This document shows, one piece after another, positions 9,875 to 27,040 of a DNA stretch of 38,637 nucleotides. The position numbers and the translations under genes are program-made. This stretch comes from Tannerella sp. (lineage in GTDB: Bacteria > Bacteroidota > Bacteroidia > Bacteroidales > Tannerellaceae), in NCBI GenBank assembly GCA_031265585.1, contig JAISCL010000359.1, positions 1-38,637 of the forward strand, written 5' to 3'. Under the pieces are notes generated by a model. It saw only the letters and a program-made list of their open reading frames with translations, was not told where the DNA came from and made no database searches. Within the stretch, counting starts at the first letter, position 1, and each line of letters starts with the position of its first letter.

Positions 9875-10687
9875 TTATTTTAAGTGGAATAAAATCATTC
9901 CGTCTATACAATTCAACATATAATAGCCGGTAAAGACAAATTGTCCTGCCGGAGAATTATTCCTTTTTATAGAATAATCAAAAGGAGTCAAATACTGATG
10001 CAAAGACAGGTAGGATTCGTTTGTTTGGAGAATCTCCGGGAAACCATGTAACAGGTGCCAGATTCTTTTTACGCTCCAGTTCTCCCAATCTATCAGGCCT
10101 TGATAATCCCGGATATTCTCGGCTCTTACGGTCGGTGAATTTGTCGGCTGGGGGATGGAGGATCTGTTTTTTATATTGCATAGCGCTTTAATCATTAGTT
10201 TTGTGCCGGTACAAACAGCCTCTTTTTTTAAATCTTCCAGTTTTGCACCCAAAGGAATCCTGAATTTTTCTTGAAGCAGGATCTCCCCGGCATCTTCTTT
10301 TTCATTAAGCGCATGAATCGTTACGCCACTTTCCGTCTCCATGTTATAATATATCCAGAACCATGGGTTAGGGCCTCTATAGTTGGGGAGAAGGGATGGA
10401 TGAAGGTTTAAACTGCCGTATTTTGGTAATGAGTAGATTTCTTTTTTAAGCAAAAAAGGCATTTTGAATATCGCAATGACTTCCGGCTCTTTGCTTTTTA
10501 TCCAGTTGAACAGTTCCGAATCCTGTGATTTCAATTCTTTATATGGAATATCCCGCTTTCCGGCATATTGTTTTAATTCGTCTGATGGCCGGCAATTTAG
10601 AATCCCGACAATATATAACTGATTGCATGCATTTAAATCCGAAACAAAAGACGAATACCCTGTTGTGATGATCAATACTCTTATCAT
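9875..10687 (-). CDS. Formyltransferase-fold enzyme (Fmt/GART-like), last gene of the RiPP-like operon
   Basis: 270-aa ORF; LNLHPSLLPNYRGPNPWFWIYYNMETESGVTIHALNEKEDAGEILLQ contains the N/H (NLHPSLLP) and D (EDAGEIL) formyltransferase landmarks. Confidence 0.85.
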   Translation of the reverse strand: MIRVLIITTGYSSFVSDLNACNQLYIVGILNCRPSDELKQYAGKRDIPYKELKSQDSELFNWIKSKEPEVIAIFKMPFLLKKEIYSLPKYGSLNLHPSLLPNYRGPNPWFWIYYNMETESGVTIHALNEKEDAGEILLQEKFRIPLGAKLEDLKKEAVCTGTKLMIKALCNIKNRSSIPQPTNSPTVRAENIRDYQGLIDWENWSVKRIWHLLHGFPEILQTNESYLSLHQYLTPFDYSIKRNNSPAGQFVFTGYYMLNCIDGMILFHLK

Positions 10688-10703: not shown

Positions 10704-12032
10704 TTATAGATACAAGTATGAATACGCCTTTATTTCATAAGGAATGCCATTATTCGCACTGATCTCATCTACTAACTGGGAGAAATCGCTATCATCCATA
10801 TAGCGTGACAGGTTAATGACCGGGCAGCCGTCTTTCAGGAATTGAACCGGGTCACTGATGCGTCCGTTTTTACAGGCATTTTTGTAAAGTGTAGATCCCG
10901 GGAAGGCAATAATCATATCTAATGAGATGGAAGAATGTTTTTTGTTTTTTTGCCACCAGGATAATGTTCGGTGGGCTGATTCGTTTGTTTCGTATTCATC
11001 ACCAATAATGATGGTGGAACGGGTATCTAAACCTGTATTAATCGTTAAATTAAGCGCCTGCTCTACCTGTTCGATCGTAATCTGTTTACGCATGCTTTTG
11101 AGTATCCGGTTATCAGCGCTTTCAATACCCAGGAAAATATAACGGCAGTTACTTCCTTTCAAGGCATCAATAATTTCCCGGTTGACACAGTCGACTCTTA
11201 GCTGGATGGACCAGATGAAATCATATTTTTTTGCCCGCCTGCAGAATTCCAGGACCCGTTTATTGTCGGATGCAAATAATTCTTCCCGCAGTGCGATGTA
11301 ATTTATTTTGAAATGCCGCGTCAAAAAATCTATCTCTGCAAAAATAGAGTCTAAGGATCTTTGGCGGTATTTACTGCCCGTCGGGTGAAAACAGAATGTA
11401 CAGTTATATTTGCAGGAGCGTCCTCCGATAATAGCAACCGGCGTATATTTCACTCCGTTTTCCACCTCTCCGTTTGTGTTTAAATAGTTGTCGTAATCGA
11501 AACCGAGGTAGTCAGGAAAAGGAATTGTATCTAAATCCTGAATTTCTTTTCGTGGAGCTGTCCGGTAATATTTACCATCTTTTAAATAGATTAATCCGGT
11601 CACATTTTCAACTGGTAACCGTTCGGTCAGGGCATTAATCAGTTCGGGTACGGTAATTTCACCTTCCCCGATTACCCCGTAATCGACAATCTCAAGCGCA
11701 GTCATTGCATTTTCAGCATCAGATGTAATCATTCCTCCTCCCGCAATTGAAATAATGGAAGGTTTAATCTCTTTTGCCATCCTGAATACCGGATCAATTT
11801 CCGGGAATTGTCCGGAGATACCGCCCACTCCTATTATGTCAATGTGATTATTTTCAATGAATGTTTTCAGGATATTAAAACATTCTCCGTCAATATGATT
11901 AAGATTCGCGGTAAATACATTTGCTATCTTCGCCTGTTTAAGCGCTGATGATACATACAGTGTCCCTAACGGCATAATATATCCGCATTTTTTTGTAGAG
12001 AAATAACGGGGTACAACTAATAATACATTCAT
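10704..12032 (-). CDS. B12-binding-domain-type radical SAM protein
   Basis: 442-aa ORF; N-term MNVLLVVPRYFSTKKCGYIMPLGTLYVSSALK plus VDYGVIGEGEITVPELI; radical SAM cluster motif CKYNCTFC. Confidence 0.88.
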   Translation of the reverse strand: MNVLLVVPRYFSTKKCGYIMPLGTLYVSSALKQAKIANVFTANLNHIDGECFNILKTFIENNHIDIIGVGGISGQFPEIDPVFRMAKEIKPSIISIAGGGMITSDAENAMTALEIVDYGVIGEGEITVPELINALTERLPVENVTGLIYLKDGKYYRTAPRKEIQDLDTIPFPDYLGFDYDNYLNTNGEVENGVKYTPVAIIGGRSCKYNCTFCFHPTGSKYRQRSLDSIFAEIDFLTRHFKINYIALREELFASDNKRVLEFCRRAKKYDFIWSIQLRVDCVNREIIDALKGSNCRYIFLGIESADNRILKSMRKQITIEQVEQALNLTINTGLDTRSTIIIGDEYETNESAHRTLSWWQKNKKHSSISLDMIIAFPGSTLYKNACKNGRISDPVQFLKDGCPVINLSRYMDDSDFSQLVDEISANNGIPYEIKAYSYLYL

Positions 12033-12043
12033 TTTTCCTGATT

Positions 12044-13417
12044 TTATTTGACATTCAATATCGTATAGTCAGATCTTATCCGGCTGATATTTTCTATCGG
12101 TGAAACGCCGAAACGTTTTTCATATAAACGCTCGAACCTTTTCAGGATGATTTTTTGAACAAAATCTTTTGTGAAGTCGCAAAAAACATCCCGGTATTCT
12201 TCCGGATAAGCGTTATACAAATAGAAACAGCCGCCGCCACAATTCCATTTAACGGTACAGTCCTTGCATTTTTCCTTTGAATATACATTTTCGTCAAGAA
12301 GATTCCTAAAAATCTCCCGGTCGACCGCTATTTTGTGATTACCAGTCACTGTGTTAGCGAAGACTTCTCCATAAATAACTTTATGATAAGCTGTATCGTT
12401 TGAAGTTGAAATGCAATAACAGCCGCTTAACTTGCCGTTTGCCGTGAGGCAAAATTCACCGGCACATGCGCGTTCTGTCGGATATACGGTTCTTAAATAG
12501 GGAAATGAAGTCAGGCTTTTACCTTTTACATGCACTTCTCTGTCAATTGCCAGAAAATTATCCGTATAGATTTTCAAGAAACGGCTTAAATCTGTTGATT
12601 TCGGGAATAAGTCGGCTGCCGTCACAGGTTCAAACATCATATTGGTTATTTCCGGGAATTTTTCATCCAATTGATGATACATCTCAAGCATCCGTTCCAC
12701 ATTATCCGGTGTTATTGTTGCGTTTATTTGTGGAATAATATGATGAGAAATAAGTTTTTGTATGTTATTTATAATCGTTTGATATTGTCCGCGCTGTTTG
12801 TTTTGTATTTCTTCCAGGATATCAAATGATATGCTGATGTTAATATTGTTTTGACGGATGAACGCCAGCATCGTATCAGTCATCAAGGTTCCATTTGTAA
12901 TAATTGTAAAGTCAATGTGTTTAGCATTAACTTTCGCCTTTTGTCCGGCATAAATAATGCTATCATGCACTAAATTCCATGACAGCATGGGTTCCCCGCC
13001 TCCCATATAAGAGATGGAGAGCGGTCTGTCTTGTTTTTTAGAATTGATAAAAAAATCAATTGCATATTTTAATTTTCCGATATCAAGTTCTATGTCGGAA
13101 CGTCCTTTTGCAGAATAGCAATAGCTGCAGTTAAGATTGCACTTTTGATTGGGCAAAACGGTCAGTAATGGATAGTCTTCAATATTTCTTACTTTTCGGG
13201 CGCGATTTTTCAGCGGCACAAAGTCCGAAAGTTCATTTATGATATGCTGTAATGCCCGGTCTGTAATTTCTTCATCGTCCAATATCTTTGCCGTTTCATT
13301 CGTTAACCATACCGCCTTGCGCGTCATTGGAGAATATAACAAACAGAGTTTACCCGGAGGAACAGTCATATCATAAGGATAAACAAATAAGTCCTTTTTG
13401 TTTAAGATTTTATACAT
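12044..13417 (-). CDS. Radical SAM/SPASM peptide maturase, paralog 6
   Basis: 457 aa; CNLNCSYCYSAKGRS; GGGEPMLSW; DILEEIQNKQRGQY; SPASM CKDCTVKWNCGGGC. Confidence 0.92.
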   Translation of the reverse strand: MYKILNKKDLFVYPYDMTVPPGKLCLLYSPMTRKAVWLTNETAKILDDEEITDRALQHIINELSDFVPLKNRARKVRNIEDYPLLTVLPNQKCNLNCSYCYSAKGRSDIELDIGKLKYAIDFFINSKKQDRPLSISYMGGGEPMLSWNLVHDSIIYAGQKAKVNAKHIDFTIITNGTLMTDTMLAFIRQNNINISISFDILEEIQNKQRGQYQTIINNIQKLISHHIIPQINATITPDNVERMLEMYHQLDEKFPEITNMMFEPVTAADLFPKSTDLSRFLKIYTDNFLAIDREVHVKGKSLTSFPYLRTVYPTERACAGEFCLTANGKLSGCYCISTSNDTAYHKVIYGEVFANTVTGNHKIAVDREIFRNLLDENVYSKEKCKDCTVKWNCGGGCFYLYNAYPEEYRDVFCDFTKDFVQKIILKRFERLYEKRFGVSPIENISRIRSDYTILNVK

Positions 13418-15434
13418 CTTCTATGGGAGCTAAGTAATATCCGGTTCTAAATAGCCATAATAAAAGGGACACTTGGTGAAAATGACATTCTTCTATTACG
13501 TCATTATGTCTGGTTGTCCCTTTTGTGATTTTAGATAATGGAAATAATATATTGATCTTTCCGATCTTCCAGTTACAACTGTCTGCAATATTATCAGTAG
13601 GTAGATAGCCTGCGAGTATATTCCATGCGATCATTTGCCGGTGTCTTAAATGATTGAATACATCTCCTAACAGATCGAAATGATAATCGTCAATGGACTT
13701 GTTCCTTGCCTCAATTAATTGTAATCCCATGCTATTAAGTATAAGTATCAATGTATCAACATAAGATAAAATAGTTTGCCTTCTATTATCCATTTTATAT
13801 CGATGCCATGCTGTTTCTATTTTTTCCAATGTGAAATTGTAACTCGGCAAAACTGTCTTGTAGTTATTTATGCCGCTTTTGGATTTTTCCTCATATAACA
13901 AATCCAATGATTTTGCTATAAATTGGGCAGTTTCCAGATTATAATTTATATCAATTGTAGTATTTTTAAATCCAAAAAACCGGATATTGGAATAACGTCG
14001 TTTGTCTTCATGTATTTTTTCTATGTATTCGGAGAATATATGATATTCCGTAACGACCGGAATTTCCTTTTCATAAACTTCCATTGGTAAGTGGGTTGCT
14101 AAAATGTAATTCCTGTCGGAGTTTTCAGAACATATAGCAATAGTTGAGACCGCATTTTTTAAATTAATCAGATTGATTATTTTTTGTTTAGCTTCTTCTT
14201 CGAATGGTGATATCTCAATAAAAGAACAGGAAATATCCGGAATCTGTTTATATCCGGAATATCTCGTTTTAAATAAATTAATACTGTCCTTGTTGTCTGT
14301 GATAATTGTTATTTGTGTTTTGTTAAGGCTATTAATTTCATCAAAATTTGCAAAATGACAGACTTTTATGGCTGTTTTTAACAATTCCATCCCCATCATA
14401 TTGAATCCCAATAGAACGATATTTACAAAATTACTAGAAAAAGGGGTTATTTTGTTTTGTAACAGAGAATCATATTGAAAAGTTGATTGGGGGGCCAAAA
14501 TCTTAGATAAATGTCCATATCCCCATATTTTACCTGCCCAGATTTCGTAAAAATTGAAAGGGAAGAGGTGGATTAACGGAAAATTTTGCTCCTGAAAATA
14601 TTTTAGCATGAAAGAATCATCCCAATAAGAAAGAAAGCATTTTATTGTTTCTGTTTTTTCATATTTTTTCTCCGGAATTTTGTCTTTTAGTATTCTTATA
14701 ATATTATCAATGATTAGAATGTTGCCGGAATCACACCACTCTATCGAATTATCTCCAAGAATTACAATATGTCTACAAACTTCCAATTTTAATACTGATA
14801 ATTCTTTTTTATCATTAATGTCTCCTTTATAGATGATTATTCGCTTTCTTGTTTTATTATCCAAAAAACCAAGTTGTGTTTTTATTGTTTGTGGAGAATG
14901 ATTACTTAGTATTACAATGCGTCTTTGCTCATTGTTTTTATGTTGATCAACATTTATCAGATATTGTACGACAGAAAAGATCAACTCATTTGCCCCAATT
15001 ATTACATCATGCTTCTGTAATGATTTATAACGAATCAATCCTTTCTCCACAACAGATATTCTTCGCTGAAGTAAATTATTGAATGTAGAAATGAGCAGTC
15101 CGCTGAAAACAATAGAACCAATAAAAGAAACAAGTATTGAAAAGAATTTAAAGTGGATAGGTTCCGGTGCATTATCAACTCCACTGGTTTGTGAAAAGAG
15201 GCTATATATCTTTAATATAAGCTCGGGATTGTGGTCTTTTCTGATCATGTTGGCTAACAAAGATATATAGATGATCGTGAAAACGACAACAACTAATAAA
15301 AGACTTAACTGGTATTTGGATTTTCCTTTTAATAGATTGTCTAATTGGTTATTGCAGCGTAATATATACCATAATGCTGCAATAGTGAAAGATAAAGAAA
15401 AAATAATCAATAATATCCAATTTAATATTTCCAT
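13410..15434 (-). CDS. Membrane protein with tandem TrkA/RCK-like domains (CASTOR/POLLUX ion-channel-like)
   Basis: 674 aa; three N-terminal hydrophobic segments, then HDVIIGANELIFSVVQYLI and NIVLLGFNMMGMELLKTAI Rossmann-like starts; possible RyR-like C-terminus. Confidence 0.7.
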   Translation of the reverse strand: MEILNWILLIIFSLSFTIAALWYILRCNNQLDNLLKGKSKYQLSLLLVVVVFTIIYISLLANMIRKDHNPELILKIYSLFSQTSGVDNAPEPIHFKFFSILVSFIGSIVFSGLLISTFNNLLQRRISVVEKGLIRYKSLQKHDVIIGANELIFSVVQYLINVDQHKNNEQRRIVILSNHSPQTIKTQLGFLDNKTRKRIIIYKGDINDKKELSVLKLEVCRHIVILGDNSIEWCDSGNILIIDNIIRILKDKIPEKKYEKTETIKCFLSYWDDSFMLKYFQEQNFPLIHLFPFNFYEIWAGKIWGYGHLSKILAPQSTFQYDSLLQNKITPFSSNFVNIVLLGFNMMGMELLKTAIKVCHFANFDEINSLNKTQITIITDNKDSINLFKTRYSGYKQIPDISCSFIEISPFEEEAKQKIINLINLKNAVSTIAICSENSDRNYILATHLPMEVYEKEIPVVTEYHIFSEYIEKIHEDKRRYSNIRFFGFKNTTIDINYNLETAQFIAKSLDLLYEEKSKSGINNYKTVLPSYNFTLEKIETAWHRYKMDNRRQTILSYVDTLILILNSMGLQLIEARNKSIDDYHFDLLGDVFNHLRHRQMIAWNILAGYLPTDNIADSCNWKIGKINILFPLSKITKGTTRHNDVIEECHFHQVSLLLWLFRTGYYLAPIEDV

Positions 15435-15436
15435 AG

Positions 15437-16702
15437 TTAAACAGTTAACAAAGTTTTTACTAACATATTTCTTACAAAATCACAATGTATTTCAAAATAT
15501 TCCGGAGGGTAGGCGTATCGCGCCAATAAACATCCTCCGCTGCAATGCCATTTGGCAATGCAAGACTGACAGGTTGTATGCCGGTAAACGTTCTTATTCA
15601 TGATCTCCTGTAGTTTTTTTGTGTTTATCATCACTTCGTTGCCGGATGTCACAGAACCATAATGGAACTGTTCATAAAAATCTTCTTTCGGAGAAGAAAT
15701 GCGTGAACAGGCCGTTATTTCACCTTCGGGTGTAAGGGTGAATTTGCTTAAACAAGCACGTTCTTTACATATTTCTGCACTGTTTACGAACGTATTCCCT
15801 ACATAGAAGTTGTTTTTCAATCCCAATTTATATGCGGAGAAATAGGAGTCGGTAAAAATTGTGTAAAAATACTTTAAATCGGCAGGCTGTTTAAATAACG
15901 AACGGTTCAGTACCGGTTCAAACGCAATTCCCCCTAAAGCCGGAAAACCGGTGATTATTTCTTCTGCCATTTCATTCATACGGTGAACGTTTAATGGCGT
16001 AATTGTACTTCTTATACCGGGATAAATATCGTTTTCTATGAGGTAATTAATTCCTGCACAAACTTCATTGTACTTACCGCGCTGTTTATTTTGAATATCT
16101 TTCAGGACATCAAAAGAAACGACTAAGTTAACATTGTACTGTTTGATCATCTCCAGTACTTCCTGATTTAGCAGTGTTCCATTCGTCACAATTCCATACT
16201 TAATAGAGATGTTATATCGGCTTGCTAAATAATCTGCATGCATAATGGCCTCTTTTAACAAAGGAAAAGACAGTAAGGGATCTCCGCCGCCGGAAAAGGT
16301 CACCTGTAATTTTTTGTCTTTTTTTTGTGCGTTTATGAAGAAATCCAATGTTGTCAGCAGTTTATTCCTGTCGATAGACTTGCCGGAGCGCCCTTTAGCT
16401 GAATAACAATAGGAGCAGGAAAAATTGCATATATAATTGATAAGGATATTTAACTCGGTAGTTTCGTCGATACTTTTTATCTTATGTAATATTTTTTTTT
16501 GTTTGAATAGAAATCCGGAATCGGTTGATAAATCTTTGTTCCTGAAAAAAGTAGCATTATTTGCAAAAGAGTATACGTCTTTTTCCGATACCTGTAAGTG
16601 CATACCTGCGAAAGGAGCATATACCAAACAGTTCTTATCCGGTTCTGCCATTTCTGTATGGATAACAAATATTTCTTTTTTGTTTAAGGAAGGTATATTC
16701 AT
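15437..16702 (-). CDS. Radical SAM/SPASM peptide maturase, paralog 5
   Basis: 421 aa; CNFSCSYCYSAKGRS; SGGGDPLLSF; DVLKDIQNKQRGKY; SPASM CQSCIAKWHCSGGC. Confidence 0.92.
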   Translation of the reverse strand: MNIPSLNKKEIFVIHTEMAEPDKNCLVYAPFAGMHLQVSEKDVYSFANNATFFRNKDLSTDSGFLFKQKKILHKIKSIDETTELNILINYICNFSCSYCYSAKGRSGKSIDRNKLLTTLDFFINAQKKDKKLQVTFSGGGDPLLSFPLLKEAIMHADYLASRYNISIKYGIVTNGTLLNQEVLEMIKQYNVNLVVSFDVLKDIQNKQRGKYNEVCAGINYLIENDIYPGIRSTITPLNVHRMNEMAEEIITGFPALGGIAFEPVLNRSLFKQPADLKYFYTIFTDSYFSAYKLGLKNNFYVGNTFVNSAEICKERACLSKFTLTPEGEITACSRISSPKEDFYEQFHYGSVTSGNEVMINTKKLQEIMNKNVYRHTTCQSCIAKWHCSGGCLLARYAYPPEYFEIHCDFVRNMLVKTLLTV

Positions 16703-16706
16703 GTGT

Positions 16707-18029
16707 CTATTCTATATTACAAGTGTTGTTTACGCCTAATTTCCGAAGGATTAGTTCTTTCGAAAAAGTTCGTGTGAAGTCACAAATGATGTTGCGAACG
16801 GATTTGTCGTATTCGCGATTTTGCACCATGCATCCTCCTCCGCAATTCCATTTTACGAAACAGGCATTACATTCGGGATAATCATCTGTTGTATCTGTAT
16901 TTATAAGTTGTTGATACTTGTCGTAATCGAATGTTAAACGGCCGGCTTTATTGACTTCACCATAGATGCAGTTATGATAATGAGTATCCTGCGGTGAAGA
17001 TATTCGATGGCAAATCGTAAATGTACCTTCGGGGGTAAGGCATAGCTCTCCAAAACAATAACGCTTAACAATGGAATTAAGATTTCGCAGTGGAGCGCAT
17101 TTCAGTTGTTTTCCTTTTTGCTGAGCCAGATCAAGTGCGTCAAAAAAAAGTTCCAGGTATCTTTTATAGAACATTTTTGTTTTTTCAATATCATGAAAGG
17201 TATGTTTATCTGTGACAGGGTCAAACATATAACAGTTTACTCCGGGGAATCTCCTGATTAACTCCTGTACCATTTTGACCATTAGTTCTACGTTTAATGG
17301 AGTGATCATGGCTCGTATTTCAATATAAAGGCCAGCTTCCGATAACCGGTCAATAGTTTTACAAACCTTGTTGTATTGTCCCCGTTGTTTGCGTTGGATC
17401 TCCTCCAGTATTTCGAACGAAACGCGAAATTGTACCTGATAAGTAATAAACGTTTGAAGCATTTCTTCATTGAGAATGGAGCCGTTCGTGACGATTTCAG
17501 TTATCAAGTGGATTCCCTGCTTTTTTGCCAATGAATGTGAATATTCAATGCCAAATTTCAACAGTTTCCATGAGAGTGTCGGTTCACCGCCTCCTAAAAA
17601 GTTGATGAACAGTCTTTTTTCTTTGATTCGCTTTTCGTCAACAAAATAATCCAGCGTAGTTTTCAGTTGTTCCATACTCAACTCTTTGTTGGAGCGACCT
17701 TGTGCAGAAAAGCAATAGGAGCAGGAAAAGTTGCAGCTATAATTGGGTAAAATAGATAGGCGCAGGTATTCGTCAGGATGTTGAATACGATATATATGTT
17801 TCCCGTATAAAGAAGTGTCTGATAAATAATTTAAGTGTGTGAACAAATCTTCATCGCCCTGATTGTTTTCAATTACGTTCTCAAGTCGGGCAGGATATTC
17901 GGCATCGGTTTTCATCACATAGCCGGTCAATGGTGCATAGAGCAAATAAGTACCGGTTCCCTGATCTTTTTTGGATTCATCCGGAGGAATTACAAATATT
18001 GAACGGCGTAGCAGGTTGGGATATTGCAT
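16707..18029 (-). CDS. Radical SAM/SPASM peptide maturase, paralog 4 (start trimmed from ORF-track 18098)
   Basis: CNFSCSYCFSAQGRSNKE; GGGEPTLSW; EILEEIQRKQRGQY; SPASM CNACFVKWNCGGGC. MQYPNLLRRSIFVI aligns with sibling N-termini and begins 4 nt after paralog 3's stop. Confidence 0.9.
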   Translation of the reverse strand: MQYPNLLRRSIFVIPPDESKKDQGTGTYLLYAPLTGYVMKTDAEYPARLENVIENNQGDEDLFTHLNYLSDTSLYGKHIYRIQHPDEYLRLSILPNYSCNFSCSYCFSAQGRSNKELSMEQLKTTLDYFVDEKRIKEKRLFINFLGGGEPTLSWKLLKFGIEYSHSLAKKQGIHLITEIVTNGSILNEEMLQTFITYQVQFRVSFEILEEIQRKQRGQYNKVCKTIDRLSEAGLYIEIRAMITPLNVELMVKMVQELIRRFPGVNCYMFDPVTDKHTFHDIEKTKMFYKRYLELFFDALDLAQQKGKQLKCAPLRNLNSIVKRYCFGELCLTPEGTFTICHRISSPQDTHYHNCIYGEVNKAGRLTFDYDKYQQLINTDTTDDYPECNACFVKWNCGGGCMVQNREYDKSVRNIICDFTRTFSKELILRKLGVNNTCNIE

Positions 18030-18033
18030 ATTT

Positions 18034-19380
18034 TTATCCGGCGTGATTATGAATGAGTTCTTCCAGTGTAATTCCATGTTGATCAATATAATCATCATTG
18101 AGCTTTTCTAACAGCAGTTGATGGGCAAGGGCGCGTGTTGATTCACATATAATATTTACTATTTCTGTGGGATATTGTTTATTGTTTGCCAAACAACCGC
18201 CTCCGCAGTTCCATCTGACAAAACAGGAGGTGCAGTTTGGATTTTTCCGGGCGGTTTCTTTTTCTTTCAAACGATAGAACTTATCAAAATCAATATTAAC
18301 CGTATTTTCTTTATCCACAAAACCATAAATATGATCTTCATAATCATCCTCTTGCGGAGAAGATACTTCCAGACAAATAGAAAAAGTTCCCTCCGGTGTT
18401 AAACAGAATTCGCCATTACAATATCTTACAACAGTTGTATCAAGGCTTCTTGTAACAGCATTTCGAACGTCTTTACCATATTTTTTTGCCAATCTCCCGG
18501 CTTTTAAAAATGATTCGTTATAAATTTGATAGAAATTAGAAGTGTATTCCGGCTCATGAAAAGTATCCGTACTCGTGATAGGATCAAAATAATAAGTGTA
18601 GATAGCCGGAAAATATTTTATCATTTCCGCTGTCATTTCCTCAAGCAGATGGACGTTATCCGGCGTAATCATTGAACGAACTTCACAGGGTATACCTTTG
18701 CTCAACATTGCATTTATTGTTTTACGGACTCTTTGATACTGTCCACGCTGTTTATTTTGAATATCTTCCAGAATTTCAAATGAAATGCGTGGCATCACAT
18801 GATATTGTGATAATGTATTGAGTATATCTTCATTTATAATAGAACCATTTGTGATAAGTCCGAAAAATAATTCGATCCCCCGTTTTTTGGCAAGAGATGA
18901 CGCATATTCGATGCCATATTTCAGTAAATCCCAGGACATCACAGGTTCTCCCCCTCCAACAAAAGTAATTTTAAGATTTTTATTTTTCGATCCATTATTA
19001 CTTATAAAATAATCCAAAGTAGCCTTTAAATGCGACAAAGATAATTCTTTGTTCGAGCGTCCTTTTGCTGAAAAACAATAAGAACAGGAAAAATTACAGG
19101 TAAAGTTTAGTAATACATACAGCACCTGATAATCTTCCAGATGTTGTATCGTTTCTATTTGATTTCCGGATGTATCTTGCAAGGTCTCAAGCAGACCGGC
19201 TATTTCGGTATCCGCTTCCGCATGCTTAATGGCCTTATTTATCTGCTCAACGGTTTTATTATCAGCCAGCAACATATTTCCTGATAAAGGTGCATAGATA
19301 AGATAGAAATCATCCGGTCTTTGCCCGAAATGATGGCCGGTCGGCAGTGTGTATATATGATAGTCTGTTAATGTCATCAC
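18034..19380 (-). CDS. Radical SAM/SPASM peptide maturase, paralog 3
   Basis: 448 aa; CNFSCSYCFSAKGRSNKE; GGGEPVMSW; EILEDIQNKQRGQY; SPASM CTSCFVRWNCGGGC. Confidence 0.92.
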   Translation of the reverse strand: MMTLTDYHIYTLPTGHHFGQRPDDFYLIYAPLSGNMLLADNKTVEQINKAIKHAEADTEIAGLLETLQDTSGNQIETIQHLEDYQVLYVLLNFTCNFSCSYCFSAKGRSNKELSLSHLKATLDYFISNNGSKNKNLKITFVGGGEPVMSWDLLKYGIEYASSLAKKRGIELFFGLITNGSIINEDILNTLSQYHVMPRISFEILEDIQNKQRGQYQRVRKTINAMLSKGIPCEVRSMITPDNVHLLEEMTAEMIKYFPAIYTYYFDPITSTDTFHEPEYTSNFYQIYNESFLKAGRLAKKYGKDVRNAVTRSLDTTVVRYCNGEFCLTPEGTFSICLEVSSPQEDDYEDHIYGFVDKENTVNIDFDKFYRLKEKETARKNPNCTSCFVRWNCGGGCLANNKQYPTEIVNIICESTRALAHQLLLEKLNDDYIDQHGITLEELIHNHAG

Positions 19381-19384
19381 ATCA

Positions 19385-20737
19385 TTAAGTATTAGCGCCG
19401 TTCAATATTTCCATGATTGGTTTTCCTGTCCCGTTTTCATAATCCAGCTTCGTGCGATTCCAGATGATTTTTTTTGTGAAATTACGGATGAAATCACATT
19501 TTGCTTTTTTTCTTGTGCGATCATCCGATTTGTTCGTATGGATACATCCTCCTCCACAATTCCATTTTGCAAAACAATCTTTACATTCCGGATGGTTGTG
19601 TACATCTTCAGCTAACAGTTCAGCTAATTTGTGCTCATCAATGTCTATTTCTCCGGTTGGATGTATCTGTCCGTACACGTAATTTTTATAATGCTGCATT
19701 TCAGGAGAAGATACACATGGGCAAACTGTAATAGAACCGTCGGGACAAACCGCAAATTCCCCGGCGCAATATCGCTCTACCGAACAGTCAACATTACGGA
19801 GTAAACTACAGGATAATTCTATATCATGCTTTTCTGCAAGTTCATGTGCCGGAATGAAATTAGCAATAAAATCATCGTAAAATATGGTATCTATGTTCCG
19901 GGATGACCAGTCATTCAGTTCCATCAAGGGTTCAAACGACAAGTAATCAATCTGTGGAAATCGACAGGTAATATCTTCGATCATTTCACACTGCCGATGT
20001 ACGCTATGAGGAGTGATAACCGTATTAATTGAAAGCGGCGCACCATTTTCAACAAGCATTTTTATCTTTTGTGATACCGTATCAAAATGTTTTCTTTGCA
20101 GATTCTGAATATCTTCCAGTATATCGTATGAGATGACCAGTTCAATATTGTTTTTCAGGATGAAATCAATATCTTCCGCCTGAATTAATGAACCGTTGCT
20201 GACAATCTTAAACCACAAATCAAATCCTTCCCTATCTGCCAGTCTGTTCGCATGATCTACGGCTTTTTTAATAAGTTTTTTCGAGATCATTGGTTCTCCA
20301 CCACCCAGGAAAGATAATGATAGCTGATTTGTACCTGTTCGTTTTCTATTGATGAAATAATCTAATGCAGCAATTAATTTATTTTCGTCGATTTCAACGT
20401 TAGAACGGCTGGAAGCAGAATAACAATAGCTGCAATCGAAGTTGCATATATTGTTGAGTAATAGTGATATATTTATGAAATCAGAAGTCTTTCGAATACG
20501 TTTAGAGAGCGCTTCTTCCGAAGGACTTGTGTCGAGTAAAGCCGAAACGACCTCTTTTAAAGGTTCATCCGTATTTTTGCCGGTTAACAGGTGTTTCATT
20601 TTTTCGAGATCTTCTCCTGTCGCTATCGTAGCGATTGTTGAGAGCGGAGCGTAAAGCAGGAAAAACCGGTTTTTTTCCACAGGCAAAAAGTTGTGCAGTG
20701 AGCATGTATATATGTTGTTGTCAAATAAACTGTTCAT
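19385..20737 (-). CDS. Radical SAM/SPASM peptide maturase, paralog 2
   Basis: 450 aa; CNFDCSYCYSASSRSNVE; GGGEPMIS; DILEDIQNLQRKHF; SPASM CKDCFAKWNCGGGC. Confidence 0.92.
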   Translation of the reverse strand: MNSLFDNNIYTCSLHNFLPVEKNRFFLLYAPLSTIATIATGEDLEKMKHLLTGKNTDEPLKEVVSALLDTSPSEEALSKRIRKTSDFINISLLLNNICNFDCSYCYSASSRSNVEIDENKLIAALDYFINRKRTGTNQLSLSFLGGGEPMISKKLIKKAVDHANRLADREGFDLWFKIVSNGSLIQAEDIDFILKNNIELVISYDILEDIQNLQRKHFDTVSQKIKMLVENGAPLSINTVITPHSVHRQCEMIEDITCRFPQIDYLSFEPLMELNDWSSRNIDTIFYDDFIANFIPAHELAEKHDIELSCSLLRNVDCSVERYCAGEFAVCPDGSITVCPCVSSPEMQHYKNYVYGQIHPTGEIDIDEHKLAELLAEDVHNHPECKDCFAKWNCGGGCIHTNKSDDRTRKKAKCDFIRNFTKKIIWNRTKLDYENGTGKPIMEILNGANT

Positions 20738-22064
20738 TTGTTTCTTGTATGTAGGTTGTTCTATTCGTTTTATTTAACCGTTCTTCCAATTGTGACTTTA
20801 ACCAGTCTCGATTAAAGTTGCATACTTCATTTAGATAAGATTCCGGGTATTGATCCGACCGGGTCATACATTCACCTCCGCAATTCCATTTTGCAAAACA
20901 TTCCTCGCATTTCGTCTTGTGTAACAGGTTAATACGGATCAGGTTTTTGAATTTCTCATTGTCAAAAACAACTCCTTTATCCGTTATTTCTCCATAGACA
21001 CATTTTTCATAACGTTCTTCAAGCGGAGACGAAGCACAATGGCAGATAGAAAATGTAGCATTAGGGGTCAGGCACAGTTTTCCCGGACAATATCTTAGTT
21101 TGATCGTATCAATCATTTCATCTAACGAGAACCATATAGACGTCTTGCTTTCTTTATACTTTCGTTTAATTTTTCGGTAATTTTCACCGAATTGACGATA
21201 GAATGAACGCATCGACTCCGGCGAATCAAATTGTGCACGATCTGTCACAGGTTCTAATGTATAGCTTTTTACAAAAGGATATTTATACACTATTTCTCTT
21301 GTCATTTCGTTCATCCGGTTTACACTTAATGGAGTAATTGTTGAGTTCAGCATGATGGGAACGCCGGCATTTCCATAAGTTGTGATTGTCGATGCAACTT
21401 TTTCATAATGACCGCGTAAATGGTTTTGAAGGTCTTTCAATGCTTCAAATGATACACATACGCTACATTTATATTTCTTGAGAACATTAAGAATGTCGTC
21501 ATTCACGAAAGAACCGTTTGTAATAATGGAGGTCCATAATGTAAATCCATACTTTAAAGCTCTTTCCTGAGCGTAACAAACTGCAAATTTTGTATTTTCC
21601 CAAGATAAAAAAGGTTCTCCTCCACCTGAAACAAACATCTTTATTGTTTGAGGTTTTATACGTTCGGGATCAATAAAAAAGTCTAATGCCTGCTTCAGTT
21701 TTTCGTTGCTGATAGTCGTTTTTGAACGTCCTTGTGCAGAGTAGCAGTATTTACATTGAAAATTGCATGTCAGAGAAGGCAATAAAGATAAAGTGGTAAA
21801 TTCTTGCGGACTTTGTCGCAGATAGTTACGACTGTCCGGAAGCTCATAAGAACAGAGTTTTTTTATCCATTCTTTGTTTATATCATAAACCGTATTTCGA
21901 ACTAATTGCGGGTCAACAATATGATGGAGTTGATTCAGTTGTTTGTCGTCAATATCACAGCAAAATTTACTCAAAGGTGAATATGCAATATAGCATCCAT
22001 TATTCACCTTTGTGTTTTTTTTATTAATAGAGACAATAAATATTTCGGAATTTTCTAATTTCAT
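20721..22064 (-). CDS. Radical SAM/SPASM peptide maturase, paralog 1 (start trimmed from ORF-track 22103)
   Basis: CNFQCKYCYSAQGRS; GGGEPFLSW; EALKDLQNHLRGHY; SPASM CEECFAKWNCGGEC. Leading MTKSSQAFFFFFT is the translated hairpin/T-tract; MKLENSEIFIV aligns with siblings. Confidence 0.9.
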   Translation of the reverse strand: MKLENSEIFIVSINKKNTKVNNGCYIAYSPLSKFCCDIDDKQLNQLHHIVDPQLVRNTVYDINKEWIKKLCSYELPDSRNYLRQSPQEFTTLSLLPSLTCNFQCKYCYSAQGRSKTTISNEKLKQALDFFIDPERIKPQTIKMFVSGGGEPFLSWENTKFAVCYAQERALKYGFTLWTSIITNGSFVNDDILNVLKKYKCSVCVSFEALKDLQNHLRGHYEKVASTITTYGNAGVPIMLNSTITPLSVNRMNEMTREIVYKYPFVKSYTLEPVTDRAQFDSPESMRSFYRQFGENYRKIKRKYKESKTSIWFSLDEMIDTIKLRYCPGKLCLTPNATFSICHCASSPLEERYEKCVYGEITDKGVVFDNEKFKNLIRINLLHKTKCEECFAKWNCGGECMTRSDQYPESYLNEVCNFNRDWLKSQLEERLNKTNRTTYIQETNEQFI

Positions 22065-22127: not shown

Positions 22128-22220
22128 TTAGTCTTTGCAACGGCATCCACCACCAAAACAGTCACAGCAATCTTTTACTTTTGCTTTCGCTTTTTTCACT
22201 TTAACTACTTTTGTCAACAT
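22128..22220 (-). CDS. Candidate Cys-rich RiPP precursor, 30 aa: MLTKVVKVKKAKAKVKDCCDCFGGGCRCKD
   Basis: Hand-translated: ATG TTG ACA AAA GTA GTT AAA GTG AAA AAA GCG AAA GCA AAA GTA AAA GAT TGC TGT GAC TGT TTT GGT GGT GGA TGC CGT TGC AAA GAC TAA; Lys-rich leader, five-Cys core, immediately upstream of six rSAM/SPASM genes. Confidence 0.82.
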   Translation of the reverse strand: MLTKVVKVKKAKAKVKDCCDCFGGGCRCKD

Positions 22221-22343: not shown

Positions 22344-23087
22344 TTATTTAAAACCGGTTTCGTACAGGATATACAGTAAAAGTATGCCAATCGTGGCGAG
22401 CGCCAGGTATTTTGCGTATTGTGAAGCTTTATAGGCTTTCGATACCTTTCCGCTGTTGAAGCGAGGCTTCACTCTTGATGCAAAAAAAGCAGCCACAAGG
22501 CCGACCGGAAAACAGATCAGTATAGCGATAACGGCAAGACCCATATAATTTGTCGGTCTGCTTTCGCTGTATCGCCTGACTTTTTTATCTCCCTGCGATT
22601 GAAGAGAGGTATCTGTCAGTGTAAAACTCGGTAGATTATATTGAAGAAGCGTGTCTTCTTCGACCGTAAAACTTCCGTTAGGAGAATAAAACAACCCGGA
22701 TAAAGAGAAAATTTCCAATAAATAATGATTAAAGTCTTTAAACGTTCTGTTATCAACGTCTGCTGTAAATTCGGAGAAGGAAGAATCTGAAGCCCATGCA
22801 GAATCTGCCTCATCTAATTGCTTCAACCTGTTGAAGCATGCCTCCAAAGCATCCAGGATAAATTTGAAATAAGATTTGTCATCCGAACCGAATAAAGTTC
22901 TAAGTTTAGTGTTCAGCAGTTCTAAAACATTGCATTTTCTGCCTACGGACATGTTGCCGTTAATCGCTGTATTTACAAACGAAACAAAATAATGTTCTTG
23001 CAGTTGAGATTTTGCGGCATATTTTTTCTCCGCTTTTTTCACCTCATCAATGGCATTTAAATATACAGACAAGTCATTGTATTCCAT
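22344..23087 (-). CDS. CD225/dispanin-domain membrane protein
   Basis: 247 aa; C-term MGLAVIAILICFPVGLVAAFFASRVKPRFNSGKVSKAYKASQYAKYLALATIGILLLYILYE fits the two-TM CD225 pattern (CFPxGxxAxxxSxxVxxxxxxGxxxxAxxASxxAK). Confidence 0.75.
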   Translation of the reverse strand: MEYNDLSVYLNAIDEVKKAEKKYAAKSQLQEHYFVSFVNTAINGNMSVGRKCNVLELLNTKLRTLFGSDDKSYFKFILDALEACFNRLKQLDEADSAWASDSSFSEFTADVDNRTFKDFNHYLLEIFSLSGLFYSPNGSFTVEEDTLLQYNLPSFTLTDTSLQSQGDKKVRRYSESRPTNYMGLAVIAILICFPVGLVAAFFASRVKPRFNSGKVSKAYKASQYAKYLALATIGILLLYILYETGFK

Positions 23088-24453: not shown

Positions 24454-24979
24454 ATGAGCATTTTTGACGAATATATCAAACAGGGCGAACCTGAAAAAAG
24501 GGAAAAAAGTTACGCATGGCAAACGGCAATTGGCTTGCAGGGAGGTTGACGGGCTGAAACCTTCGCCGTATCTTATCGAAACCGCAAGGCAAAACATTGA
24601 GAGCGATATTACGATTGATGAAGTAAAATATCGCATTGGCAGTTACTACAAAGTCAAACCAGTCAAGGATGAGACTGACAGAATGGAAGAAGCAGACAAG
24701 GTTTCCGCCCGGATTGCAGGAATCTTATCTGAAAAAACCTTCACTTTTTCGCCGGCAGAATACATAACCATTCATAAGAGGCTTTTTGAAGGAATTTACC
24801 GGTTTACAGGCAAAATCAGAAATTACAATATCAGCAAAGCCGAAGAGATTGCCCGCCACATTCGGAAGTCGGAACGAACAGTAAAAACCATAACCGGCAA
24901 TCTGCAACAAAAAAACTTGCTCGAACGATGCAATGGCAAGCGAAATGGTTATTGGCTTATAAAAGGAGGAGGAAAGTAA
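24454..24979 (+). pseudogene. Frameshifted, truncated Fic-family N-terminal fragment fused to a winged-HTH tail
   Basis: MSIFDEYIKQGEPEKREKSYAWQTAIGLQ (stop two codons later) then +1 frame EVDGLKPSPYLIETARQNIE...EYITIHKRLFEGIYRFTGKIRNYNISK, no HPFxxGNGR core, then AEEIARHIRKSERTVKTITGNLQQKNLLERCNGKRNGYWLI. Confidence 0.7.
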
Positions 24980-24989
24980 AATGGAAAAG

Positions 24990-25760
24990 TATGCGCCGAT
25001 ATCAGGTATCGAACACGATAATGGCCAGCAATCCATTCCCTTATCCATGTCGCTCCATCGGTGATAAATACCGGCCGGTGATCCAACCTGCCGTAAGAGT
25101 CGATTATTTTTTGAAGTCTTTCTCCAAAATCGTTGCTGTTTCCCAAACGCGCTGCATATTGTGAGGCAGACAAATAAAAGGAATTACTGTCGGGATTCAG
25201 ACAGTCACTCTCCTTGAAGAGTCTGCCCGGCCTGACTTCTTTCCACGGCTCTTTCTCCCGCGTACACAGCATGGAACCGTCTATCTCCACATAGAGAACA
25301 TCCTCTTTCGATAACGGGGGAAGGATACGTTCTGTCTGCTTCTCTTCTTCCTCTAAAGATTCTCCCACACGATCCGTAACCCGGTAAACCTGTGAAGGAC
25401 TGACCTTGACCCGTGTGAACTTTTCCGGTATCTCCCCGCTCTTTGCAAAACATTCCAAATGGCCTGCATACGTTATCAATGCCTGCATGAATGGACTGAT
25501 CGCAAACCCGTTAACTAACCCCTGCATATAAGGGTGAGATTTGTTGATGTTTATTTCTCCGAATTTGGTAAGCGTTTTTTTTTACGCCGGTCTTGGGTTG
25601 AAGACTGCTCATTCATGTGATTTTCCAAATACAAGCGTCCCAAATCCTGCCATATCTGGTCGAAGAATTTTTCGTAATCATAGAAATTGTCCTTCGCTTT
25701 GAGGGATTCTATTTCCCCGTATCGACTGGCCGCCATGGCTAAATATTCTTCCTTTATCAT
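24990..25760 (-). mobile_element. Truncated ISKra4-like transposase remnant (two frames)
   Basis: 25551..25760 (YEKFFDQIWQDLGRLYLENHMNEQSSTQDRRKKK) continues after an A9 run in a second frame as TLTKFGEININ-KSHPYMQGLVNGFAISPFMQ...LYVEIDGSMLCTREKEPWKEVRPGRLFK...FITDGATWIREWIAGHY then ends abruptly. Confidence 0.65.
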
Positions 25761-25912
25761 TGCTTATAATCTTTTTAATCCTCGCATAGGTAATACTTTT
25801 TGGACAATGCGACAATTTGAATTGAACCCATACAAACCGCCATGCTTTACCTGCAGGTGATGAACCTCTCTGCCAAAAAAGCGTTTTCTCCCTTCGACAG
25901 ACTTTACCGCAA

Positions 25913-27040
25913 ATGAAACCACATTTTGAACCGGCAGACATAATCTGCCGCTTTGGCCCGGCCTTTGAAGAACAGCACCGACCACCCTTTTTTCAGCAAA
26001 AAGCGCTGGAAGCAGTCAGCCTGTGCCGCACGGCAGCGCCGGGCGGACAGAAACAGCAATGTATGCACCGCTGCCATGAACATGTCAGTTACAGTTCCTG
26101 CCGCAACCATCACTGTCCCAAATGTCAGAACAAGGAACGCGAACTGTGGATACGGCAAATCCGGGAGAGGCTTCCCCCGTGCAGGTATTTTCATGTGATC
26201 TTCACTCTCCCGTCCTCTCTGAACGGACTCTTTATCGCCTTTCGGCAGGAAATGCAGGATATCCTTTTCCAGGCTGCCGGGCAAACGCTCGAACAGTTTG
26301 CCGCCATGCCCGCTTACCCGGGCAAACCGGCATGATCGCCGTCCTGCACACCCGGGGACAAACCCTGACGCTGCATCCCCACCTGCACTGTATTTGTCCC
26401 CGATGGCGGTATCAACGGCAGCGGGCAACGGGTTCGGGCGAAAAAGACGGACGGCCGCTCGCCTTTCCTCTTACCCGTCATCCCCATGGCGAGGATTTTT
26501 CGCGAACAGTTCCTCAGCCTGATGTCGAAAATATTGAAGAACAGACCCGGCTGCCGCATACCTTCCGTCCGGGGAAAACACTTCAATATCAACATACAGC
26601 CCCCCTTCAGGGAAATCGACCACTTAATCAATTATCCGGGACATTACACCCATAAAACTGCGATCGGCAATCACCGCATTCGCAACATTGACAGCCGGGG
26701 CATCGTATTCTCCTGTAAAGATTATCGGGACAGGGCCACTGTAAAGGAGATGTTCCTCACGGGCGAAGAATTCCTCCGGTGACTCTGCCTGCATATCCGG
26801 CAAAGAGGGTTCAGGGAAATCCGTTACTTCGGTATTTTTGCCGCCTCCAGCCGTCGGCGGCTCAATTCCGTCAGACTTGCTTCCGGTCCGGCGCCCATTC
26901 AGCCCCGTAAAAAGAAAAACCGGAAAGAGGACGTTCGGGAAACAGTGAAGTACGATTCCTGCCTCTGTCCGGAATGTAAGGAAGGTATCATGGTAACGAT
27001 CGAACGGATCTTTCCGCCGGGCAGACCGCCGCCACGGATG
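25913..27040 (+). pseudogene. IS91-family transposase, multiply frameshifted
   Basis: Zn-binding N-term CMHRCHEHVSYSSCRNHHCPKCQ; HLHCI; INYPGHYTHKTAIGNHRIRNIDSRGIVFSCKDYRD; C-term CLCPECKEGIMVTIERIFPPGRPPP, spread over different frames. Confidence 0.8.

Follow-up and report, generated by a model that had tools for sequence, protein, structure and literature searches.

The window, by which we mean the whole stretch of DNA that was analyzed (38,637 nt; contig JAISCL010000359.1 of a Tannerella sp.), carries an operon on its minus strand. The operon contains, from 5′ to 3′, a precursor gene, the maturase genes 1–5, a gene for an RCK-channel-like membrane protein (hereafter the RCK gene), the maturase gene 6, a B12-binding radical SAM gene and a formyltransferase gene:

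22128–22220, minus strand: ORF of the precursor peptide, 30 aa, Cys-rich, MLTKVVKVKKAKAKVKDCCDCFGGGCRCKD; assigned as an ORF with a Lentimicrobium homolog
20721–22064, minus strand: SPASM radical SAM maturase 1, PapB-like; the start could be 22103
19385–20737, minus strand: SPASM radical SAM maturase 2
18034–19380, minus strand: SPASM radical SAM maturase 3
16707–18098, minus strand: SPASM radical SAM maturase 4; the true start is probably downstream of 18098
15437–16702, minus strand: SPASM radical SAM maturase 5; 2 nt upstream of the RCK gene
13410–15434, minus strand: gene of the RCK-channel-like membrane protein; intact ORF, 674 aa, ATG start, no internal stop
Parts of the RCK protein: TM/pore region, residues ~1–138; RCK1, ~139–300; RCK2, ~330–500; degenerate RyR-derived tail, ~585–674
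12044–13417, minus strand: SPASM radical SAM maturase 6; 8-nt overlap with the RCK gene
10704–12032, minus strand: B12-binding radical SAM protein; 54% identical to its counterpart at locus L045 of the sister-genus genome G124
9875–10687, minus strand: formyltransferase-family protein; 39% identical to its L045 counterpart

The RCK gene is tightly packed between two maturase genes. The stop of maturase 5 at 15437 leaves a 2-nt gap before it. At its other end, the gene shares 8 nt with the beginning of maturase 6 (13417), an overlap that the original prediction for this locus had stated; the location of the gene on the minus strand was absent from that prediction.

For each of the six SPASM proteins, PapB (NF047865) ranked first or second among the NCBIfam matches, with scores of 90–133 bits relative to a cut-off of 340. 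Maturase 2 was closest to the nif11-peptide maturase, far under the cut-off, and the other five were closest to PapB-type thioether maturases. The operon resembles PapB-type ranthipeptide systems in these NCBIfam matches and in its small Cys-rich precursor, but differs from them in that all six SPASM proteins score below the cut-off and in that six maturases, a B12 radical SAM protein and a formyltransferase are present for a single 30-aa peptide. A homolog of the precursor, MITVVFKVKTVKKGVYACCDHCGGCKCNN, is encoded in a Lentimicrobium array (L098:9648–9737), and 2.1 Mb of sequence from other loci contained no further occurrence of the precursor motif. Because this homologous peptide lies beside six related SPASM genes in a Lentimicrobium MAG, the assignment of the precursor is supported. 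None of the genes in the array was identified as coding for an exporter.

On the same strand and immediately upstream of the precursor, positions 22344–23087 of the window encode a protein of 247 aa whose C-terminus carries a CD225 (interferon-induced transmembrane protein-like) domain. Separately, we observed that a different SPASM operon, a putative RiPP system, recurs in the family (loci L046, L047 and L048). It presents a protein of 137–161 aa upstream and a Cys-containing protein of 118–138 aa downstream, the latter ending in TTGCSCAPVH.

The RCK protein and its relatives

The RCK protein had been described from its sequence as a CASTOR/POLLUX/RCK-like membrane protein that has two Rossmann-like motifs after three hydrophobic segments at its N-terminus. 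Hydropathy confirmed the three segments (residues 1–27, 39–66 and 92–119), and both motifs were recovered where RCK domains begin: RRISVVEKGLIRYKSLQKHDVIIGANELIFSVVQYL runs into RCK1 and NIVLLGFNMMGMELL opens RCK2 at about residue 337. Similarity to RCK domains, on whose absence the original prediction was to be given up, was found by profile search. The Pfam family Slo-like_RCK (PF22614) matches residues 139–248 above its curated cut-off (E = 2.1e-6), and leave-one-out HMMs, built from 21 relatives with the window protein excluded, matched the TM/pore region (3e-18), RCK1 (3e-25) and RCK2 (4e-29), with 999 shuffles as control. When used alone as the query, the protein sequence matched nothing in the PDB, and the family profile was required. 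Using the profile of the family alignment, the TM–RCK1 part matched DMI1, CASTOR, KCNT1/Slo2.2 and GsuK, and the C-terminus matched the ryanodine receptor as well as bacterial chains labeled "putative ryanodine receptor". A single-sequence AlphaFold2 model of the protein (pLDDT 37) was not used for fold searches. Taken together, the Pfam, HMM and PDB profile matches place tandem RCK domains downstream of the TM region and indicate that the CASTOR/POLLUX/RCK call was right.

Like the plant nuclear channels CASTOR, POLLUX and DMI1 (PDB 6o7a and 7vm8; PMC6697748), the window protein presents a pore-type TM region that is immediately followed by tandem RCK domains, has no TVGYG filter and is linked to these channels by the family profile match at RCK1. 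It differs from them in that the plant proteins have four predicted TM segments, whereas the window protein has fewer and is bacterial, and in that its relatives carry a C-terminal RyR domain. The window copy keeps 10 of 10 conserved columns of the pore region, 17 of 21 in RCK1 and 21 of 31 in RCK2. Its pore loop is without the (N/D)PG motif typical of most relatives, which suggests that this copy may be non-conducting; the exact motif is also missing in L080, L082, L085–L087 and L094, which are otherwise normal relatives. The window protein is a genuine, diverged member of a family of channel-like proteins, and the location of its gene is unusual and not conserved.

The relatives form a set of Bacteroidales proteins with the architecture TM-RCK-RCK-RyR. 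Whole-genome searches identified them in 11 of 125 genomes of the family and in 25 of 393 genomes of the order. In a sample of 396 genomes of the phylum, no relatives were found at E 1e-10 except in the genome of the window itself, which suggests that the family is Bacteroidales-centered. Scans of genome contigs, viral contigs and plasmids with the single protein returned no relatives, and the same type of scan against phages returned one unannotated 8.5-kb record that matched the paralog of the window's own genome. PADLOC gave no match for the window protein, which was rejected as a known defense model. We found no description of a TM-RCK-RCK-RyR family in the literature searched.

The genomic setting of the relatives is distinctive. 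A RyR gene (PF02026), standalone or fused, lies within 6 kb of at least 15 of the 32 relatives, and a TIR gene was found near at least 12 of the 32 inspected; these counts are minimum values, since contig fragments make up several of the loci and since ORF picking missed at least one RyR gene, that of the own-genome paralog (C349:4947–5216). This paralog (L032) is encoded in a row of TIR-WG repeat, RCK-RyR, RyR and TPR genes, and the genome's sole strong RyR gene lies beside it on contig C349. No TIR or RyR match was found within the window. TIR domains produce signals of the cyclic ADP-ribose type, which are bound or cleaved by RyR domains (PMC13232231). Since one domain makes the signal and the other binds or cleaves it, the relatives can be read as membrane effectors or regulators gated by ADPR-type nucleotides.

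The window copy departs from this pattern at its C-terminus. The C-terminal RyR-like domain that the original prediction had proposed to check for exists in the family but not in the window copy, whose RyR signature and pocket are lost. Indeed, it keeps only 2 of 14 conserved RyR columns, against at least 8 of 11–15 in each of the other members. All 21 aligned relatives have the pocket residues E, W, loop H and D; the window copy has lost these four and retains, of the pocket, the first H alone. The relatives' W, H and D correspond to the nucleotide-binding residues W78, H100 and D117 of RyDEP (PMC13232231). The relatives have kept the H/W/H/D nucleotide-pocket residues of RyR (PF02026) proteins such as the phage glycosidase RyDEP and animal RyR Repeat12, whereas RyR HMMs found no detectable domain in the tail of the window protein. 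A frameshifted RyR tail was rejected, as no RyR sequence was found in any of the three frames of the RCK gene's strand. In summary of the comparison with L032, L035, L078 and L079, the window copy shares their domain order and their pore-region and RCK signatures at 19–24% identity across the alignment, but differs from them in lacking the RyR pocket and any RyR or TIR neighbor and in lying inside a maturase operon.

Other maturase arrays and the origin of the RCK gene

The RCK gene had been proposed as an unusual partner in a RiPP operon. Its position between maturases agrees with this proposal, but two other arrays were found without the gene. The Lentimicrobium array (L098) contains six SPASM genes and the homologous precursor and has no RCK gene. 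In the sister genus, genome G124 presents an array remnant whose SPASM gene groups with maturase 5 of the window (support 96/95). There, the B12 radical SAM gene comes directly after the SPASM gene and precedes an M42 peptidase gene and the formyltransferase gene, and the RCK gene is absent; this genome, which is 98% complete, yielded no RCK-family match at 1e-5. The G124 contig starts inside the SPASM gene and this gene carries stops, which indicates that the array remnant has decayed. Such arrays are rare: besides that of the window, no further one was found among 395 genomes of the class, and two Lachnospiraceae loci included in the SPASM tree fall outside the array clade.

The M42 aminopeptidase of G124 (L045:2482–3561), encoded between the B12 radical SAM and formyltransferase genes, is a candidate enzyme for trimming the leader or the peptide.

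The absence of the RCK gene from the L098 and G124 arrays is one of the observations that the original prediction had named as counting against it. Outside the window, a SPASM maturase was found beside none of the 32 channel relatives inspected. The RCK gene as a component of a peptide operon is a single, non-conserved case. Because the other arrays are without it, the gene looks like a lineage-specific recruit rather than a standard part of such arrays.

The composition of the gene and its phylogenetic position bear on its origin. With a GC-content of 30.9%, the RCK gene is the lowest in the array, where values range from 35 to 40%; most other genes of the window range from 43 to 60%. The window protein groups with L078, L079 and L080 (support 83/98, long branch), apart from the own-genome paralog. 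A recent duplication of this paralog was rejected, given an identity of 32% in the search match and 23% over the alignment and the separate grouping of the two proteins. Broken pieces of an IS91-type transposase and a UPF0236 piece are located at 24949–26782 of the window, 3–5 kb from the array; the zinc-binding and Y2 domains of the IS91-type pieces are in different frames. Late horizontal capture would be the simplest account of the origin of the RCK gene, the alternative being loss in the other arrays. This account is based on two other arrays, one of them partial and with stops in its SPASM gene, and on a tree position supported at 83/98 on a long branch.

Possible roles of the RCK protein

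Several roles could be imagined for a channel-like protein encoded amid peptide maturases. It could be a dedicated partner of the mature peptide, either conferring self-immunity or serving as a membrane target whose ion flux is altered by the peptide. Such a partnership would agree with the packing of the gene between two maturases, and the loss of the RyR pocket while the RCK and pore-region signatures stay is what a change of ligand would be expected to produce; the array genes also include no identified exporter. However, two other arrays do without the RCK gene, the peptide has no known toxicity or secretion, and the case is a single one (n = 1), so that we regard a dedicated partnership as unlikely. 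The roles initially proposed for the protein (self-immunity, target of the peptide or stand-in for a missing transporter) found no support beyond the position of the gene, and the protein shows no resemblance to exporters.

Alternatively, the RCK gene might be that of an immune effector that hitchhiked into the operon and plays no part in making the peptide, brought by mobile DNA into a slot with good expression. Rows of TIR and RyR genes are the usual setting of the family, the composition of the RCK gene is distinct even from that of the array, and the broken IS91-type and UPF0236 transposase pieces adjoin the array. These features would be expected of such an insertion, but the window has no TIR or RyR gene and the sensing pocket of the protein is lost, which makes a classical effector role unlikely; moreover, packing this exact within an operon would be unusual for a random insertion. 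We therefore find this explanation rather improbable.

A more specific scenario, which we consider quite doubtful, is that, in one lineage, a nucleotide-gated immune channel with a TIR signal, a RyR sensor and an RCK-gated pore was converted into a channel gated by the peptide or otherwise linked to it, its RyR sensor being discarded and its gene built into the maturation operon of a modified Cys-rich peptide. Finally, it is very improbable that the protein is a non-conducting membrane platform whose RCK ring scaffolds the maturases or the precursor at the membrane: the location of the gene amid maturases and a pore loop without (N/D)PG would suit such a platform, but no precedent was found and the otherwise normal relatives named above also lack the exact motif.

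The interpretation that we favor, and that we hold to be somewhat probable, is that the window protein is a diverged TM-RCK-RCK-RyR member that was captured late, lost its RyR pocket and is produced along with the peptide as a protein whose ion flux is under RCK control. Members of the family are inner-membrane proteins in which a short CASTOR/DMI1-like TM region precedes a gating-ring module made of two RCK domains, with a RyR domain at the C-terminus. In the relatives, the RyR domain would sense a TIR-linked ADPR-type nucleotide and thereby change the flow of ions across the pore. The gene of the window copy would have been captured in this lineage by the low-GC peptide-maturase operon, where it is packed for co-translation with the maturases; the protein has lost the RyR pocket. 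Most likely, the protein would now control ion flux through its RCK domains and be made alongside the peptide, with its gating by a RyR ligand gone. The family, the domains, the loss of the pocket, the packing in the operon and the absence of the gene from the other arrays were observed directly, whereas we infer ion conduction, gating, late capture and any functional link to the peptide.

In the family behind the RCK gene, which is bacterial and has TIR genes as neighbors, an RCK core resembling that of CASTOR/DMI1 is combined with a RyR domain. Given the RyR result of 2026 (PMC13232231), this suggests a class of TIR-controlled ion-channel effectors, which may represent a bacterial counterpart of ADPR-RyR-channel logic. 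This family-level link between RCK core, RyR and TIR is more interesting than the single case of the window. The window copy, as a natural variant with the putative sensor lost and the channel part kept, could be useful for separating both functions.

One channel relative (L095) has a viperin-like radical SAM gene nearby. Its locus (L095:6145–14038; G457:C176) encodes a RelA/SpoT-SLOG(LSDAT_prok)-RyR protein, a TrkA_N-RyR membrane protein, a TIR protein and the viperin-like radical SAM protein, a four-part row that resembles an ADPR-type immune island.
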